This document shows positions 19,313-52,500 of a stretch of DNA of 55,369 bases, one piece after another. The position numbers and the translations under genes are program-made. The DNA lies in the NCBI GenBank assembly GCA_919902985.1, contig CAKKSC010000028.1:1-55369 (forward strand), read 5' to 3'. Below the pieces are notes generated by a model. That model did no database searches. It had not been told where the DNA came from and saw only the letters and a list, made by a program, of their open reading frames with translations. Each line of letters opens with the position of its first letter. The stretch's first letter is position 1. Source of the DNA: Desulfuromonadales bacterium. Lineage in GTDB: Bacteria; Desulfobacterota; JAENJC01.

Positions 19313-20470
19313 TTATAGATACTGTTCCTTCCCCTCTTTTTCCAGCATTTCAACCACCTTCTTTACATCCTGCGCCCTTGACTTATCGCAAATGAGGAGG
19401 GCGTCCTCTGTTTCCACTACAATCAGGTTGCTTACACCGATAGTTGCAACAAGCTTCTTCGGAGAATATATTATGCAATCCTTAGTGTCAATTGATATAT
19501 GCTCCGCATGGGCAACGACACCCTGCTCGTCCCTCGGAAGGAGGTCGTCTATGGCAGTCCAGCTCCCGACATCGTTCCAACCGAAGGTTGAAGGAATAAC
19601 AAGGACGTTGTCGGCCTTCTCCATTACCCCGTAATCTATGGAGACAGAAGGAAGTTCCCCATAAACATCATTCAGCGCCCTCTCCTGCTCCTCTCTTCCA
19701 AGGGCCGGTTCCAGCCTCAGAAGGCCTAAATAGAGGTCAGGCATATGCCTTTCAATGGCCTTGAGTATGGTAGATACTTTGAAGACAAACATACCGGCGT
19801 TCCAGAGGTACTCGCCGCTCTTTACATACTGTTCAGCCGTTGCCCTGTCGGGCTTTTCTACAAATCGTTCGACATGGTATGCCTCAAACCTTGTCTGGGA
19901 CAGCCCCGATTCTACACCCCCTTTTGTCCCCCCCTTATTAAGGGGGGGACAAAAGGGGGAGGGCCGTAAATCTGGGACAGTCCCCTCTCTGACCACCGAC
20001 CCCTTCTTTATATACCCATATCCCGTCTCCGGCCTGTCAGGGGTCATTCCAAGGGTTATTATATAATCCCCGCTCTTTGCAACTTCGCAGGCATTTCTCA
20101 AGGTCTCAAGAAATATGTCTTTATCAAGGATAACATGATCGGCAGGAAGGACAGCCATCACACTTTCAGGGTCCCTTTTCTTAAGCCTCATTGCCGCAAG
20201 CCCGATGCAGGGCGCCGTGTTCCTGCCAACAGGCTCAGCTATAATGTTTTCAGACGGCACATCCTGGATATGACCGATAAGCTCCTCGACATGCTCTATG
20301 CCAGTGACGACATAGACATTTTCAGGGTCAACAAAAGGAAGCAGCCTGTCCACTGTCTGCCTTATCATGGACTCGGAACCGACTATATCAAGGAGCTGCT
20401 TTGGCCTCTTCTTCCTGCTCCTGGGCCAGAATCTGGCACCCTGCCCGCCTGCCATTATTACTGCGTACAT
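19313..20470 (-). CDS. manC: mannose-1-phosphate guanylyltransferase
   Basis: Transfers GMP from GTP to mannose 1-phosphate, giving GDP-mannose for surface polysaccharides. The 385 residues show the nucleotidyltransferase signature IMAGGQGARFWPRSRK and PKQLL, the motifs AEPVGRNTAPCIGLAA and LPADHVI, FVEKPDRATAEQYV, and FGWNDVGSWTA. There is no C-terminal isomerase domain. About residues 162-191 (GTVPDLR through VESGLSQ) are encoded by a 90-base palindromic repeat inserted in frame before HVERFVEKP. It lies on a loop between conserved blocks, so the enzyme may still work. Confidence 0.92.
   Translation of the reverse strand: MYAVIMAGGQGARFWPRSRKKRPKQLLDIVGSESMIRQTVDRLLPFVDPENVYVVTGIEHVEELIGHIQDVPSENIIAEPVGRNTAPCIGLAAMRLKKRDPESVMAVLPADHVILDKDIFLETLRNACEVAKSGDYIITLGMTPDRPETGYGYIKKGSVVREGTVPDLRPSPFCPPLNKGGTKGGVESGLSQTRFEAYHVERFVEKPDRATAEQYVKSGEYLWNAGMFVFKVSTILKAIERHMPDLYLGLLRLEPALGREEQERALNDVYGELPSVSIDYGVMEKADNVLVIPSTFGWNDVGSWTAIDDLLPRDEQGVVAHAEHISIDTKDCIIYSPKKLVATIGVSNLIVVETEDALLICDKSRAQDVKKVVEMLEKEGKEQYL
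19896..19985. repeat. in-frame palindromic element, GGGGACTGTCCC family, manC copy
   Basis: 90 bases bounded by TGGGACAGCCCC-GATTCTAC and GTAAATCTGGGACAGTCCCC-type ends. It carries a nested perfect 20-bp inverted repeat (19917-19936 against 19940-19959, CCCCCTTTTGTCCCCCCCTT) with a three-base loop. Related 60-base copies lie at 22671-22730 and 50750-50809. The length is a multiple of three and the manC frame stays open. Confidence 0.8.
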
Positions 20471-22277: not shown

Positions 22278-23108
22278 CTATTTCAGGTTCAGAAACTTAT
22301 GTACCTGTGGAATTACCCTTACATCCAAGAGCTTGCGGGTTACAATCTCCTGTAATCTAAGAAGACTCCCGGCATCCATATCAATAGGTGTCCGGGGCTG
22401 AATGATAAAGGGGATATTGACATCAACAGAATAAACAAGCTCAGCAGCCAACATTAGCTCATCCTCGGCGACCATACTGTCCACTACGACCTTGACAAAC
22501 ACCTCACTCTTGGATGCCATTTTAAGAAAGTCCCTGTGAAGGTTCCAGAAAGGCTTCACGCCGGAAACCGAAGGGAGCTTGATATCCATGCCTATTATGT
22601 CTATGAGATCGATAACCTCAGAAAGATGGGCAGGAAGGAGGCCGTTGGTCTCAAGATATATCTTTAGCTTGGGGACTGTCCCAGATTTACGGACGGAGTG
22701 CAGCGAAGTCGTAGAATCGGGACTGTCCCCGTTTTTGAACTCAGTAAGCCACTTCTTCAGGAAATCAGACTGTTCCAGCGGCTCACCTCCTGTAAGAGAT
22801 ATGGAGTGATGCAGGTTTTGATGTGTCTGATAGGAGTTGATGATCTCTGTGAGTTTTTCAGGTGAAACAGGATTCGGTAGGGGCGTATTGCCATACGCCC
22901 CTACGATATTGCACTCTGAACTTCGAACCCTGCTCTCCGGTGTGTCGCAGTAATTGCAGGTAAGGGAGCAGCCGGAGAACCTCACAAATATCTGTCTTAA
23001 CCCTACAAGCAGCCCCTCACCCTGGATGGATGAAAAAACCTCTGAGAGGTAGGCCTTTCTGACCCCTGACCCTTTATGCCCTTGAGGGTACTGACCCCTG
23101 CTTTTCAG
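22278..23108 (-). CDS. queE: 7-carboxy-7-deazaguanine synthase (radical SAM)
   Basis: A radical SAM enzyme of the queuosine pathway that turns carboxytetrahydropterin into 7-carboxy-7-deazaguanine. The cluster motif is [18 protein letters not shown] with the CxxxCxxC cysteines. Upstream and in frame lies [16 protein letters not shown] and VGLRQIFV, the conserved QueE N-terminus, so the protein begins well before the GTG at 22985. No ATG or GTG remains there: the segment preceding codon 23057 is GGGGTCAG repeat DNA. The first possible start is a CTG at 23108 overlapping the trpB stop. Two further repeats are absorbed in frame (22671-22730, 22877-22904). Confidence 0.85.
22671..22730. repeat. 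in-frame palindromic element, GGGGACTGTCCC family, queE copy
   Basis: Exactly 60 bases from GGGGACTGTCCC to GGGACTGTCCCC, with GATTTACGG and GTAGAATC next to the ends. In queE it is read on the minus strand and encodes a stretch containing [20 protein letters not shown]. The copy at 50750-50809 is read in the other orientation. Confidence 0.85.
22877..22904. repeat. GTAGGGGCGTA hairpin repeat inside queE
   Basis: A perfect 11-bp inverted repeat, GTAGGGGCGTA-TTGCCA-TACGCCCCTAC, with a six-base loop. It encodes [10 protein letters not shown] in queE without breaking the frame. A related hairpin is in the giant CHAT gene near 53665. Confidence 0.75.
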
Positions 23109-24289
23109 AGCTCCACCCCTTTTATCTTTGCCACATGCATCACGTCCTTGTCGCCCCGGCCCGAAAGGTTAACAATTATCACCTGGTTTTTCTTCATCTT
23201 CGGGGCTGCCTTAACTGCATAAGCCACTGCATGAGCGCTCTCAAGGGCAGGGATGATACCTTCCTCCTTAGAAAGGAGCTCAAAGGCCTTCAAGGCCTCA
23301 TCATCCGTGGCGTACGTATAATCTATCCTTCCCTGGTCCCTGAGATACGCATGCTCAGGCCCGACGCTGGCATAATCCAACCCGGCGGAGACCGAATGGG
23401 TCTCAAGCACCTGGCCGTTTTCGTCCTGAAGGAGGTAGCTCTTCGTCCCCTGGAGAACACCAAGAGAGCCACCTGCAAACCTTGCAGCATGTCTGCCGCT
23501 CTTTATACCCTCCCCTCCTGCCTCAACTCCAGTCATCTTGACTCCCTTATCCTTCATGAAGGGATAGAACAGCCCCATGGCATTACTCCCTCCGCCAACA
23601 CAGGCGATCAGCAGGTCAGGGAGCTTCCCCTCAAGCTCCATTATCTGCTTTCTTGCCTCTTTCCCTATCACGGACTGGAAGTCCCTGACCATAACAGGAT
23701 AAGGATGAGGTCCGAAGACCGTGCCCATAATATAGTGGGTCGTTCTTACATTTGTAGTCCAGTCTCTCAAGGCCTCACTTATGGCGTCCTTAAGTGTCCT
23801 TGTCCCTATATCTACCCTGTTCACCTTCGCGCCCAGGAGCTTCATCCTGAATACATTGAGAGATTGCCTCTTTACATCCTCGGCCCCCATATATATCTCA
23901 CACTCAAGGCCGAACATGGCGGCCCCTGTGGCTGTTGCGACACCGTGTTGTCCTGCCCCTGTCTCAGCTATTATCCTCTTCTTTCCAAGCTTTCTGGCAA
24001 GGAGTACCTGGCCGACAACGTTGTTTATCTTGTGTGCCCCTGTATGACAGAGATCTTCGCGTTTAAGATAAATCCTGGCCCCTCCAAGCCTCTTTGTAAG
24101 CCTCTCTGCATGATAAAGAGGAGTGGCCCTTCCGACAAACTCCCGCAGGTAGTAAGCCAGTTCCTTTCTGAACTCCTTATCCTTCTTAAACCTCTCATAC
24201 ACCTTTGTAAGCTCAATGAGAGCAGGCATCAGGGTCTCAGGGACGTATCTCCCGCCGTAGATTCCAAAATGTCCCTTTTTATCAGGCAT
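23105..24289 (-). CDS. trpB: tryptophan synthase beta chain
   Basis: Condenses indole and serine to tryptophan with pyridoxal phosphate. The ATG at 24289 ([13 protein letters not shown]) has GGAGGGG five bases upstream and is preferred over the ATG at 24301; length is 394 residues. Motifs are [13 protein letters not shown], the Schiff-base Lys87 in [25 protein letters not shown], the phosphate-binding [12 protein letters not shown] and the C-terminal [10 protein letters not shown]. No trpA or other trp gene is in the window. The queE frame begins at the trpB stop, suggesting one transcript. Confidence 0.96.
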
Positions 24290-32895: not shown

Positions 32896-34029
32896 CTAAC
32901 CCTGAATCCCGGCAAGGATGGCATTTATAAACCTTTCTTCATTTCCATTCATATTCAGGCCTATCTCTAAGTAATATATCGGCATACCCATCTTATCCTT
33001 AAACCGCTCAATTTTCACTGCGTCTTTTTCTGTTGTTAATATAAATTCCGCGCCTGCTGCCCTTGCCTTTTTTTCGACTCCTTCCATGTCTTTCGCCGTA
33101 TAACTGTAATGGTCAGGAAAAGAGATCTCAGAGACCAAAGTGCAATCCAAAGATGACAGGAGGGTAATAAATGATGACGGGTTTGCAATTGCCGAAAGAG
33201 CTGTCACCCTATGCCCCGAAATGGCATCTAAACCTGTTTTTGCGCCATCCCTGAGCGAAACAAGCCGTTCAGGCCTGTAACTGCTTTTGAATACGGCAGC
33301 TTCGGGCTGCTTATCCGTGATACTGTCAGCTATCCGGCCAGTATCGGAAGAGGCCTTTGTTATCAAAAAGATATCGGCCCTCTTCATACCGGTCAAAGGC
33401 TCCCTCAGAGGCCCTCTCGGGAGGAGATGGGCATTCCCAAAACCCTTCTCTCCATCAACTAAGAGTATGTCAAAGTCTCTCTTTAATCTTACGTGCTGAA
33501 AACCATCATCTAAAATAATGACATCCAGAGGTAACCTTTCCAGGGCGTATCTGCCGGCCTCATACCGATCTGCGCCAACAAATACTGGGACGTTCTTGAG
33601 CCTCCTTGCCAGCATGTAGGGCTCATCCCCTGCCTCCTCCGGCCCAAGGAGGAGTTGATGACCGTCAGATACTACACCTATACCCTTACCTTTTCTTTTG
33701 TACCCCCTGCTTAGTATCGCTGCCTTAACTCCACGCTCATTCAGTCTGCGTGCAATGAATTCACCCGTTGGCGTCTTTCCTGTCCCGCCAACGGTTATAT
33801 TCCCAACAGATACAACCTTGCAGCCAATCTCTCTTGCCTTGAATAAGCCTGACGAATAGAGAGCCAGTCTGATCCTTATTGCAGCCCCGTAAAGAATTGA
33901 GAGGAGATACAAAGGATAAAAAAGTATCCGGCAAAAAAAACCGGCATCCCGTCTATATGCAATGTAATCAAAAAGTCTTTCCAATCGGTCTTTTATAGCA
34001 TACTTCACAACCTTAGTCAAAACAGTCAA
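32896..34029 (-). CDS. lpxK: tetraacyldisaccharide 4'-kinase
   Basis: Phosphorylates the 4' position of the lipid A precursor at the inner membrane. The P-loop [18 protein letters not shown] is at residues 74-91 and the lipid-facing N-terminal helix is [21 protein letters not shown]. Further motifs are [32 protein letters not shown] and TTEKDAVKI. The start TTG at 34029 overlaps the stop of the REP transposase. The original start and promoter may therefore have been replaced, leaving the whole envelope operon dependent on transcription from within or beyond that element. Confidence 0.93.
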
Positions 34030-34742
34030 CTTCTTAAAAGGGGACAGATTTGTTTTCTATCTTCTTTTGGCCTTCCCTGCTTTCTGAATTCCACGCGACG
34101 CCCGATCTTTTTAGCAACTTCTTCAACAAATCGATTACTTCCCGTCAATTGACCACGTTGTATTGCCTGCCGTATTATGCCTTCTTCCATCTCCGAAATC
34201 GGACTTTTTACGAATTCCTTATATCTCTCTTGTCGTTCTTTGACTGTTCTGCCCAAACGCATATAACCGGGGTCAAAATCCAGCCAGGTTGAAGATAAAC
34301 CGATCTTGTCTTTATAGCTGGACCATTTGTACTTTTCCGGATCATCCACCATGCCCGCCCTGACAGGGTTCAGTTCCACATAGCGACAGCAGGCCAACAG
34401 GTACTCATCTCTATCGACAGGACTTGACTTGTAGCGCCCCTCCCATAATGTTCCTCTTCTTCCCTCTATTTTATTTACATATCGAGTTTGTCGCCCGAAA
34501 ATACGCTTCATCAGCAATGCCAAATTCTCAACATCTTTACCAGGGTCGATTATTAGATGGATATGGTTTGTCATGAGGCAATAGGCATATACCTTACAAC
34601 ATAGCTCCTTCTTCCACCCCTTCAGATTGTCGAGATAGTAATGATAATCATCATCAGTGGCAAAAACTGCCTGCCTGTTATGGCCCCGCTGGATTATATG
34701 GTGGGGATAGTTTGGTAGTACGACCCTTGATGTTCTTGGCAT
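34026..34742 (-). CDS. REP-associated tyrosine transposase (RAYT)
   Basis: A 238-residue Y1 transposase of the IS200-like/RAYT group. The start is MPRTSRVVLPNYPHHIIQRG. The HUH metal motif is TNHIHLIIDPG with H60 and H62. The likely catalytic Tyr104 is in LWEGRYKSSPVD, followed by CRYVELNPVRAGMV. It should cut and join single-stranded DNA at flanking hairpins. Its last codons (KQICPLLRS) are encoded by the element end AAACAAATCTGTCCCC. No disabling mutation is seen, so it may be active. It sits at the head of the lpxK operon. Confidence 0.9.
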   Translation of the reverse strand: MPRTSRVVLPNYPHHIIQRGHNRQAVFATDDDYHYYLDNLKGWKKELCCKVYAYCLMTNHIHLIIDPGKDVENLALLMKRIFGRQTRYVNKIEGRRGTLWEGRYKSSPVDRDEYLLACCRYVELNPVRAGMVDDPEKYKWSSYKDKIGLSSTWLDFDPGYMRLGRTVKERQERYKEFVKSPISEMEEGIIRQAIQRGQLTGSNRFVEEVAKKIGRRVEFRKQGRPKEDRKQICPLLRS

Positions 34743-46500: not shown

Positions 46501-49500
46501 CCACTCTCCTGGCCCTCTTCTCCCTTTTATTCGTTTCAGCAGCCTTTCCTTCCACATCCTTAGCAGCAACTACAACACTGAACACTCCCTTAAAACTTTC
46601 CACCCACACCGCTGACGACTTTCAACCCGCCGTTTCTCCAGACGGGAAGATGGTGGCCTATGTATCCAACAGAAGCGGGAACAACGACATCTGGCTCGTT
46701 CCCATAAACGGCGGCCCTGCAAGCCAGATGACATTCCATACCGCATCCGATTCAGCTCCGGCATGGAGCAGGGACGGGAAAAGGCTTGCCTTTGCCTCTC
46801 TCAGGGAGGACTCAAAAGGTGATATATGGGTGCTGGATCTGGAAGGGAATATAGAGTCAAGGATAACAGACTCCAGGGGCGCTGAATCATATCCATCGTG
46901 GTTTCCAGATGGGAAAAGGATTGCATTTTCAAGAGGTGAAGGGATCTGGAGCATCGATCTGCCGACCCATAAAGAAGAACGCCTGTTTAACGGCTTCTAT
47001 CCTTCTGTCTCACCCGACGGGAAATATATAGCTTTCATATCGTTAGACGATTCCCCCTCACCTCAATCCTCTCCCGCCAGGGGAGAGGAGGCAGAAAAAG
47101 AGTCCCTACCCTCCTCTGGAGGGAAGGGCAGTATATATCTTTACAAAACAGCCGACAATAAGATAACAAGACTCACCTCCGGCGAATTCTCAGACGCCTT
47201 CCCATCCTGGTCACCCGATGGAAGGGAGATTTATTTCTCAAGGTTTGCCGAGGATACAAACAACGACGGCCTGATTGACATAAAAGACAATCCCTCAATC
47301 TGGAAGATTGAATTTAGTGCAGAATCAGACAACTCAAAACTCAAAACTCAGAACTCAAAATTTGCCGTTCAACTCACCTCCGGCTCTTCATACGAACTCT
47401 TCCCGTCCGCAACAGATAACAGCGTCATATACGCCGCAAGCAAGGGGAAGGATATGGATATATACAGGGTTCAGAGAAATGGGGAGATACCAAAACTAAA
47501 AACGGCCAGGGAACAGCTTGACCTCGCATATCGGCAGAGAGACGCCCTGCACAGGCTCCTGGCGTTCAGGAAGGTCTACCTTTCCGGCTTTCCCAAGGAC
47601 GATGGGCTGTTTTCAGAGGCCAGATACCAGGTGGCCCTTACATATATGGAATTGGGTCACAAAAAGGATGCGAAGAGGGAGCTTGAATCCGTCATCTCGT
47701 CTTTCCCTGAAGAGAGAAGATATTCATCTCTCGCCAGGGTCGAACTCGCAAAAATTAAAGCCGCAGATGCAGTATCCGCAGGTGACAAAGACAGGGCATT
47801 GAAAGAAGTAAAAACCCTCAAGGGGATCATAGACGAATACAAGGACCAGGCATATTCTCAGGCCATGGCTCAGTTGGAGATAGGCAATATATATATATCA
47901 CTGAAGGACGATGTCCAGGCGCTGAAGGAGTATGAAAAGGTCCGTGCGCTTTACTCCTCTAAAGCCGCAGCAGTAGCTCAGGCAAGACTCAGAATGGCTG
48001 ATATATATATTTCCTACGGCGACGAACTGAGGATTATAGACACCTATCTGTCTATTATTAAAGATTACCCGGAGTCCTTAGAGTGGTGCCTGACAGGGTC
48101 CCAGAGGGTCCTTTCGCTTATAGAAAGGATCGAGGATGAAAGAGAACGCGTCGCAAGCTACAGGGAGATTATTTCAAAATATAAAGGGCTCCCGTACCTC
48201 CCTGCCCTTGCTCAGTACAAGGTCGGGGAGTTCTACCATGTCAGGGGCAGATATGAGGAGGCCGTTTCAGAGTACAAGCGGGTCCTGGATGATTTCCCTT
48301 CAGAGACATCCATTGCGGATGAGGCATCTATCGCTATGGCAGAGGTTTGGTTATCAAAGGGATCTCACGGCAACGCCCTCTCCATCTATGAAGGATTGAT
48401 GAAAAAGGGGGTTCTCCGCGCCGGGAGGTTATTCATAAATACGTCGCTTGAAAAGGGGAGGATGGAGCTTCTCGGAAAGGAACCGGCCCAGGCGATAAAA
48501 AGCTATAAGTCTGTAATAGACCTTGACTACAGCGATATCAGGGCGCACAGAGGTTTGATAGAGGCTTATGCAGCTAAAGGCGAGCCTCAAAGAGCTGTAG
48601 CCATATATACGGAAGAGGTAAAGAAGTTTGGTGACAGCGACACAGCCCACTATGCCCTTGGCCTTGCCTATACCTACCTTAACCCTCCTTCTCTAAATTC
48701 GGCGGAGTCGGAAATAAAAACGGCACTGTCTCAGAATTACTCCCTACCCTTTGCCCACCAGACCCTTGGCTGGATATATGAAATCAAGGACAAGACGGAA
48801 AACAGCAGTACCATGGGACTGGCTGTGGACGAATATCTGGCGGCCCTTGCCCTCTTTCCACCGGAGCAGAAAAAGGAGGCATCCGACCTCCTGTTGAATA
48901 TCGGAAACGGTTACTCCGCCCTCGGAAACCATGAAAAGGGATATGAATTCTACAAGAAGAGGGTGGAAACCGGAGTTGGATTTGATGACCGGATGAGGGA
49001 AGCGCTCTTTTACGAAAACCTGGGGAATGCGGCCTCCAGGACAGGTAAATATACGGAGGCGGTTCCTTACTACCTGAAGTGCCTCGGTTATGCCAAAAAG
49101 GTCAGGGACAGGAAATGGGAGTTGAAGATAACCGAGGAGATGGCACTGCTGTATCAGGAGGCCAAAGACTATGCGAAGGCAGCCGAATATTTTTCTCAGG
49201 CGCTGAAGATAGCTGAAGAGGCAAATATGGCAGAATCAAGGGCTGTCATATTGAGAAATATAGCATACAACCTCTATCACGCGGGAAAGATAGAGGAGGG
49301 GATCAGATACTTCAACAAAAGCCTGGATGCCCTTAACGTAAAAGAGGATATCTCATCATCTTCCGGCGGCCTCCTGACCATCAAAAAGGCCCTGGCCCTG
49401 GGGAAGGAAGGCTCCGAGGCATTCATGGGTTTTGAAAAGTCGGGGGAGGAAAAGCTTATTCACTCCTATCTCGGAAGCGCCTACTCAGAAACAGGGGAAT

Positions 49501-52500
49501 ACGAATCTGCATTGAACGAACTTCTAAAGAAGCTGGAGGGAATACCGGAAGGGAGAGATACAGAAAGAGGCATTGTACTTAACAACATTGGGTTCCTCTA
49601 CTATCAGATGGGGGATGCGGGAAATGCCTATCGTTACTTCAACAATTCTCTGGAAGTGTCGGGGAAGGCAAAAAACTTCACAGGCGAGATGGTGAACATC
49701 ATAAATATCGGCCTGCTGGCAACACAGAGCGAATGCGGAGTGGAGAATGCGGAATGCGGAATTGAAGAAACGATAAAGCTTCAGGAGAGAGGGATAAGCC
49801 TTATAGATTCGGAAAAAAGGGGAAAAGAGTACCTGCCTTACCTGAAGAACAATCTGGGGCTGCTGCATCTAAAAGCAGGGGGCAGTGGCCAGTGGCCGGG
49901 GGTCAGTAAACAATCCAGAGAGTTGGAATCTTTAGTGAAAAACTCTTTAAATCTCATCAGCCAGGACAGAGACCATCTGGAAAAGGCCACAGCAGAGTTC
50001 TCGGAAGGGCTGAATGCACTTGGAAGGGATAAAGACCTCTGGCTTGAGGCAGTCCTGGAGCTTAACCTCGCCAGATCCCTCTATCATCACGGCAATGATA
50101 AGGATGCATCAGTCCATCTCAATTCGTCTATGGAAATTGCGAATAAAGGCCCCTTTAATGACCTGAAATGGCGTTGCCTGTCGCTGCTGGCTGATATAGA
50201 CTGGAAGAACAAGGGGAAACACCTTGAGGATGCTGTGGCTGTTCTGGAAGGAACATCTCGCCCCCCCGTTAAGGATGCCGAAACCCTTTACAAGGAACTG
50301 ATTTACCTCCTCTTTTCAAACGGCAAGATAGACGATGCCTTTACTTACGCTGAACGGATGGCTGGGAGCAGGACCAAGCACGAGGCATCAATGGCAAGGT
50401 TCTCCCTGCCAAAAGAGGAAGCACCTCTCTCAGCAAGGGATGTTCAATGGTTTCTGGACGAGAAGACGGCCCTCGTCAGGTATCTGCTTACGGATAGAGG
50501 CCTACTGATCTGGTTGATTGATGCCGATAATATCCAGGGTAAGGTCGTAAACGTTTCAGAGAAAGAGTTGAGGGAAGGGGTAGATGACCTGTTGTCATCC
50601 CTGGACAAGAAAGATATTAATGATCACCTCTCACCACTTGTCATCAGGCCCATTGCCCCTCTACTGGCCAACAAAAAAAGGGTTTATATCATGCCGGATG
50701 AAATCCTCTTTTCTGTCCCTTTTGCTGTGCTGAAGATTGATAATAAAAAGGGGACTGTCCCGGATTTACGGACGCAGCGAAGCGAAGTCGTAGAATCGGG
50801 ACTGTCCCCTTTTCTTATAGATACCTTCGAGCTCTCTTACCTGCCAAGCGCATACATACTCAATGCTGCATACGAGAAGAGGAACCTCAACAAGGTAAAT
50901 ATACTCATATCCCAGGGAAAGGATTATCCTGATAGTTATGTTGAGGGTATAGGCTCCAGTACGCCGATATTCGCGGCGCTGAAGAGCGACAGGACAAAGT
51001 TCCTCGATATGGCATCCAACTATGGGATGATTCATATAACAGACTCCCTTTCTATCAACAAAACAGCCCCATTCAGGTCATCGCTTGATTTCAGGAACGG
51101 CAAGCTCTTCCTTTCAGAGCTGATCCCATTGAAGATGAATCCGAACCTGGTGGTGATTACAGCTGTCAGCGGTCAGCCTTCAGCGATCAGCCTTTCTGAC
51201 GCCATGCAACCATTGCTATTTGCAGGCGCCCCTTCCGTCCTTGTAAAGACAACTCCAACCGACAAGGATACAGAGGAGCTCTTCATGAAGGAGTTCTATG
51301 GTGCATTCAGGAAGGAATCTGCTTCAGGGGCGCTTTCAAGGGCACAGACGGCGCTAAAGGCAAAGGGGATGAGCCCCGGCATTTGGGCAGGTTATGCGCT
51401 ATACGGCTACACAGGGATGAACCAGGAAGAGGAAAGGAAGTATGCATCCCGGAAGGTGGCTGATATCATGGACGCAGCCATTGAGGCCTATTCCAAGGAG
51501 AACTGGAGGATGGCCATCAGGAGATTTGAAGAAGGTCTCCTGTTCCTCAGGACCATAGGGGCAAAGGAAGACCTGGGGAACATTTACCAGGCACTGGCAA
51601 AGGCCTGCGCAAACTCAGGGGAGTATGCGAAAGGGGCTTCTTACCAGGATCAATTCATAAAGGCCGGTTCAGGGAAGCTCTCCAAACCAGAGCTTGCTGA
51701 AGGGTACAGGAGTCTGGGAGTTCTTTATTCCAGAGCCGGTGAAGACAAAAAGGCAGAGGAGGGCTTGATAGAGGCCCTGAAGATATGGAGGGAAGAAGGA
51801 AACAAAAAGAGCCTGTCCGAAGGATACCGCACCGTTGCCCTCTTGCAGGAAAAAGGCGGAAGTTATAGCGCATCTATTGAATCATTTAACACAGCCCTTA
51901 GCATTGACAGGGAGATAGGAAACAGAGAATCGGCAGGGCAGGACCTCTGGGAGACAGGAAGAATATACTACCTTCGCCTGAGCAGTCTTGACGAAGCAAT
52001 GAAGTTTTATAAAGAGGCCCTCTCCGTATTCAAGGGGCTTGGAAACAGTGAAAAGACCGCCAGGGTCCTTCTGGACACAGGCCTTGTCTATGAGCAGGGA
52101 GGGGAATACGACTCCGCAAAGACCAATTACCTCGAGGGGATCAAGATCGCGGAAGAGATAAATGACAGGGTTGCATATTCAAGAGGAACGCTTTATCTCG
52201 CAAACGTTGCCTGGCATATGGGCGACTATCAGGAGGTGTTTAAATACCAGAGGACAGCCCTGGAGGTCGCCATAGAGCTAAAGGACAGGAAGCAGGAGGC
52301 CATGGCCCAAAACCTGGCTGGGCTTACTTATATGAATCTTGGCATGCTGGAAAAGGCGCTGGAGGCCTTATCAAAATCTCTCTTTATTTCAATAGATACA
52401 GGCGACAAACTCGATGCAGCCGCTGCATACAACAACATAGGGATTGTCCAGAGAGAACTGGGGAACCTTGATAAATCCGTAGAAAGCTTCAAGAACGCCC

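Follow-up and report, generated by a model that had tools for sequence, protein, structure and literature searches.

Palindromic elements that are kept in frame within protein-coding genes are best known from Rickettsia; otherwise, occasional intragenic REPs are found. In the case of Rickettsia, such in-frame elements can naturally be explained by genome reduction together with weak selection. The Rickettsia palindromic elements (RPEs) are 100–150 bp long, different element groups are found at one gene in related species, for which insertion hot spots have been proposed, and queA is one of the Rickettsia genes that host them (PMC3767692). Another described system is that of the TIRYT transposases, which are flanked by GGGGWSAS repeats; these can also be found as dispersed dimers (Di Nocera et al. 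2013, PMC3733652).

The window (the whole stretch of 55,369 nucleotides that was analysed) contains in-frame palindromic copies of this kind, which are presented with their hosts in Table 1. The preliminary description had reported 60-base palindromic copies in three unrelated genes; all three were confirmed at its positions, with lengths of 60, 60 and 90 bases, all multiples of three, and with host frames that are open through all of them. As it had also stated, the element is read on one strand in queE and on the other in CHAT, the CHAT copy having the element's sense. The palindrome which it had described within the manC copy is present, with its extent and its assignment to a second repeat family refined as in Table 1; the right end of the manC copy has decayed, and the nested repeat type is also fused to other copies of the element (L053, L107, L117, L177, L211). 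The hosts were identified by Pfam and PDB matches (CHAT, ManC nucleotidyltransferase, radical SAM/QueE). Concerning single-strand folding, the two 60-bp copies reach −15.5 and −17.7 kcal/mol (z about −4.2 and −4.7) and the 90-bp manC copy −37 kcal/mol (z −9.3); none of the shuffled versions of the three copies folds as well as the real sequence. Rfam gave no match anywhere in the window.

Table 1. Features of the window that are related to the palindromic element
Feature	Position	Strand	Remarks
60-bp element in giant TPR/CHAT gene	50750..50809	+	in frame; encodes 21 residues
60-bp element in queE	22671..22730	+	in frame, read on opposite strand; encodes 20 residues
90-bp composite element in manC	19896..19985	-	in frame; encodes EGTVPDLRPSPFCPPLNKGGTKGGVESGLSQ
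Nested 43-bp palindrome, 20-bp arms, second repeat family CCCCCTTTTGTCCCCCCCTTA..	19917..19959	.	inside manC copy
Host ORF, TPR and CHAT protein, 2689 aa	46206..54275	+	several further in-frame repeat insertions
Host ORF, QueE (7-carboxy-7-deazaguanine synthase)	22281..23060	-	Pfam/PDB matches
Host ORF, ManC (mannose-1-phosphate guanylyltransferase)	19313..20470	-	Pfam/PDB matches
Y1 (IS200-like) transposase, GGGGACAGATTT terminal inverted repeats	34026..34742	-	related end motif, not element's own ends
Site of additional 60-bp CHAT element of G002	48678..48692	+	15 bp here vs 66 bp in G002, net 17 codons

We put at roughly 0.75 the probability that the element is a non-autonomous, hairpin-forming mobile repeat, copies of which would persist in genes where the host frame stays open and the site is a turn, linker or tail. 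Like the palindromic elements of Rickettsia and Wolbachia, it is found in frame in unrelated conserved genes as well as between genes; unrelated repeats occupy one gene site in relatives, and queA is a host in both systems. The differences concern the unit, which is 49–96 bp here (mostly 59–60) vs 100–150 bp, and the hosts, which among the matches listed are records labelled Nitrospirota, Deltaproteobacteria and other phyla, plus phages, but Rickettsia and Wolbachia for the RPEs. The likeness to RPEs drawn in the preliminary description holds for the way the element works (in frame, in several frames, within proteins), but membership would not follow from it, given the shorter unit, the other hosts and the TIRYT-like ends. 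Since length and host range differ and the likeness rests on behaviour, we call the element RPE-like and do not file it as an RPE.

The unit is GGGGACTGTCCC-(A)GATTTACGGAC-loop-GTCGTAGAATC-GGGACTGTCCCC, in which GGGGACTGTCCC is followed by a second arm GATTTACGG(A/G)C, a variable loop, the partner arm G(T/C)CGTAGAATC and then GGGACTGTCCCC. It is an inverted-repeat structure without a gene of its own, sharply defined, with nearly invariant 24-bp ends and with identical copies that are dispersed. The length is usually 59 or 60 bp (the two main size classes; mode 60, range 49–96 bp); further forms are shorter (49–54 bp) or longer (to 96 bp) and have loops that contain other palindromes, as in the manC copy. 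Based on 43 copies, 98.2% of the pair cells of the long stem are standard pairs. Compensated cells number 12, vs 2.5 in shuffles, and nearly all are found at one A-T/G-C/C-G pair adjoining the loop; most other stem pairs are invariant, so what the outer arms show is conserved sequence, not covariation. In the 154 copies whose ends are intact, position −1 is A in 81% and position +1 is G in 72%; no consistent target duplication of 2–8 bp is seen.

The family is found well beyond the window, where the preliminary description had suggested looking for it. GGGGACTGTCCC with one mismatch has 7 matches in the window vs 0.36 expected; in the 2.13-Mb genome its 11-bp core is found 55 times, vs 7 times for a reversed-pattern control. 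This genome (G000) contains 29 elements (about 30), of which 11 lie in frame in ORFs that extend 60 codons or more to either side of the element; for the same-genus genome G002 the corresponding numbers are 55 and 23. Together with 6 copies from a second congener (G001) and 100 from other genomes, the collection comprises 190 distinct copies. Copies were taken as genic when an ORF passes uninterrupted across the element and has 60 codons or more on both sides of it: this applies to 62 of the 190, and 128 lie outside long ORFs. Some genic copies are orthologues of one insertion, so 62 is not the number of independent events, and a few of the 62 may be antisense or unannotated ORFs (e.g. L308:7242, L320, L343, L136). 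A plasmid collection contained no match to the element, and the sole paper retrieved by a literature search as containing GGGGACTGTCCC deals with sheep.

Most of the hosts checked are core enzymes according to family models. The hosts include queE, queA, tgt, mnmG, cobJ, selA, cobQ, cbiE/T, hemH, cobB, mqnC, manC, CHAT, nadB, purL, prmC, lnt, a class I tRNA synthetase, a phosphomannomutase and a protoporphyrinogen-oxidase-like gene. Even with the insert, many hosts still pass the NCBIfam equivalog cut-offs (MqnC, NadB, PurL, CobB, HemH). The queuosine genes queE, queA and tgt, plus mnmG, all of them tRNA-modification genes, carry elements (L054:3131-5583, window 22281-23060, L057:1923-3923), and queA of another genome (L115) has an insert at a different position, Rickettsia queA also having an RPE; this clustering may be a coincidence.

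Concerning the frames, three open ones cover nearly all genic 60-bp copies: among 29 genic 60-mers, one 16-residue reading is used about 17 times, a 15-residue reading 8 times and GDCPxF..RRIGTVP 3 times. As the frames are open through the element, the copies are apparently translated as about 20 extra amino acids in the host enzymes; under the proposed mechanism, persisting copies would add about 17–33 residues, in whichever open frame they land, and would be near-neutral for the host. The claim that the repeat is tolerated in several frames and survives inside proteins is thus upheld by the genome-wide copies, the three open frames and the empty or differently filled alleles described below. 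The recurrent 16-residue reading, an MqnC insert at one site in four genomes and the many copies at operon gene junctions could also be read as signs of functional protein modules or regulatory RNA hairpins under positive selection. This we consider very improbable, as the hosts are unrelated, three or more frames are used, loops are freely swapped for other palindromes and the G001 orthologues do without the element.

The preliminary description had also expected lengths divisible by three to be enriched in genes, but there is no significant enrichment (39/62 genic vs 67/128 other copies, Fisher p=0.21). The commonest length is 60 everywhere, genic or not, and in-frame copies of 50, 52, 53, 59, 61 and 64 bp exist, so the junction bases also adjust the frame. 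A bias of the 60-mer to stop-free sequence was considered and rejected, the mean being only 3.45 open frames vs 3.12 for shuffled letters. In a manual, informal reading of the non-genic list, copies are mostly found at operon gene junctions, with one likely frame-broken gene (L180); the scarcity of such genes agrees with a loss of disruptive insertions, the in-frame set being selected by its own definition. The strong hairpin might instead be cut from the mRNA or skipped in translation, giving a protein without the insert. Bypass of this kind would tolerate many breaks, whereas genic copies keep the frame open and only L180 looked frame-broken; since the in-frame set is selected by definition, it is the manual non-genic reading that speaks against this explanation, which we hold to be extremely improbable.

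Based on alignments to PDB entries and on domain boundaries, the inserts are placed in turns or linkers. The ManC insert falls in a loop of T. maritima 2x5s, between residues 162 and 163, and displaces no residue; when QueA is aligned to B. subtilis 1yy3, its insert appears as a gap of 21 residues. A domain junction is the site of the insert in the CbiE/CbiT fusion, in CobQ and in the phage terminase; in the terminase, the end of the insert and the edge of the domain share a few residues. ManC and QueE were also modelled with AlphaFold, but the alignments of three sequences lacked depth and the models (mean pLDDT 32.8 and 41.5, respectively) were too poor for use.

Comparison with orthologues, a check that the preliminary description had proposed, showed that the same-genus genomes hold empty or differently occupied alleles. 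The queE copy is common to G000 and G002, and G001 has a CCCCCCTTAGATAAGGGGG palindrome at that site. In manC, a related composite is present in G002, and the G001 site contains GGGGTCAG-type tandem repeats. The queA, tgt and mnmG copies are common to G000 and G002 and absent from G001. Concerning the CHAT gene, G002 has an insertion start (IENKKGTVPD) identical to that of the window copy, at which point its contig stops; a second CHAT copy is found in G002 only and is absent from both G000 and G001, which on the aligned alleles is a gain between congeners. In the protoporphyrinogen oxidase gene, the G002 copy is inserted within a copy of the G000 type. More distant genomes also share hosts: four of them have the element at one site of MqnC (60, 72, 60 and 90 bp), and two have it in NadB. 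The preliminary description had named two outcomes that would speak against it, the same segments in close orthologues as ancestral sequence, and copies that are unrelated and confined to the window; neither was found.

The same sites in G000, G001 and G002 are often filled by unrelated repeats, and with occupancy differing across relatives they act like permissive hot spots. Divergence, or a different repeat at the site, blurs the junctions of the empty alleles, all of which are too imprecise to fix the exact product of insertion. Untidy junctions, unrelated repeats at the same sites and the lack of a cognate transposase in 67 Y1 loci (see below) would suit a spread through recombination or through errors of replication (gene conversion, or template switching at hairpins), with no dedicated transposase and with hot spots that swap any repeats. 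We regard such a spread as unlikely, since the element has sharp limits, 24-bp ends that hardly vary, a preference for A and G at its flanks and dispersed identical copies, and is found across phyla and in phages.

If the element is a mobile repeat, it would be a dimer of a GGGGAC-ended terminal repeat or of a REP-like unit, and it would insert mostly between A and G, without target duplication, into both intergenic DNA and genes. One element end, taken on its own strand from the outside in, is GGGGACAG, an exact match to GGGGWSAS; the other end, GGGGACTG, matches at 7/8 positions. Terminal repeats of the GGGGAC or GGGGTC type are found in 43 of 67 Y1 loci (15 genomes), the window Y1 gene included. 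No Y1 transposase gene flanked by the element is found in the 67 loci (G000 and 14 further genomes), and the sole element match among them lies ~1.2 kb from a Y1 domain having different terminal repeats. Because none of the 67 loci carries the element at its ends, we infer only at even odds that a TIRYT-type Y1/HUH tyrosine transposase mobilises it in trans. Among the solo half-sites, no left half and right half were seen apart with a gene between them. The window Y1 gene and the Y1 loci L031-L037 and L229-L288 each have their own GGGGAC or GGGGTC terminal repeat, and upstream of the window Y1 gene there is a tandem duplication of GGGGACAGATTTATTTATTGACATCGGTTGATTAGG.

The GGGGWSAS end and the dimer organisation are shared with the TIRYT terminal repeats, and GGGGAC/GGGGTC-ended Y1 transposons are common in the host genomes; however, the element flanks no Y1 gene in the 67 loci and is often found inside genes. 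With the REP/REPIN sequences of RAYTs it shares paired inverted hairpin units, a variable spacer and a GTAG adjoining one hairpin, and its copies within ORFs resemble the intragenic REPs of O. terrae and Thauera. GTAG REPs have an unpaired GTAG tag at the foot of every stem. In the element, GTAG is present in the right half only, the other half having GTAA; the GTAG lies 4 nt from a 5-bp stem and is largely paired with TAC in the long hairpin. REPtrons (a RAYT gene flanked by the same REP) are not seen among the 67 Y1 loci sampled. REPs are mostly extragenic and so is the element, with 128/190 copies outside long ORFs, though 62 are inside. Like MITEs, it is short and non-autonomous, with inverted repeats and no gene of its own, but it lacks a target-site duplication.

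Among the matches listed, the core is found in records of Nitrospirota, Deltaproteobacteria, Poribacteria, Omnitrophota, Desantisbacteria, Abyssobacteria and others, with phylum labels that come from metagenome assemblies, whose bins can carry a wrong label; Rickettsiales do not occur among the named matches listed. As the nameable genomes with copies are metagenome assemblies, an assembly or binning artefact was weighed; its probability is negligible, given that the element recurs in independent assemblies, at orthologous positions and in viral contigs. Ten stretches with the core are found in viral contigs, often within genes of Mu-like phages and in frame there (portal, terminase, Mu-type transposase, MuF protein). 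These copies make it plausible that Mu-like phages carry the element between distant bacteria. In the viral contigs (L349-L358), two in-frame copies share one 2002-codon ORF with a MuF C-terminal domain. A broader reading, of which we are doubtful, is that of a phylum-crossing family of coding palindromes, borne by Mu-like phages and mobilised by some enzyme, which would add or exchange segments of about 20 residues in core enzymes outside Rickettsiales and whose loop would accept other palindromes.

A larger repeat surrounds the element in the Poribacteria record; it turned out to be a distinct, MITE-like repeat, inside which the element has been captured. In this repeat of ~133 bp, with CTAGTGTAGTGTCTC..GAGACACTACACTAG ends, the two are dispersed together (L118, L129, L139, L161, L162, L171, L174).

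Here, the in-frame outcome is found in uncultured bacteria of several phylum labels, in many conserved enzymes and in phage genes. With relatives whose sites are empty or filled differently, it becomes possible to test how frequently functional proteins gain new segments from mobile DNA, in which of their loops these are tolerated and by what means the element moves. For annotation, apparent lineage-specific inserts in metagenomic proteins, e.g. PPLNKGGTKGG or the 16-residue reading, are probably repeat-derived.

Other repeats are also present in the window hosts. In queE, GGGGTCAG repeats fill the start region (22985-23110), and the protein's conserved N-terminus has no in-frame ATG, GTG or TTG ahead of it; G001 and G002 have an element of the palindromic family exactly at this place. 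Looking at the CHAT gene, the other in-frame repeat insertions include SPSPQSSPARGEEAEKESLP and KTQNSKF, both found in this genome only, and also SECGVENAECGIEE; the CHAT gene of G002 contains HPSSRIPHPSSLIL and GAGLAPAQGQPQGLPLQ insertions at other sites.
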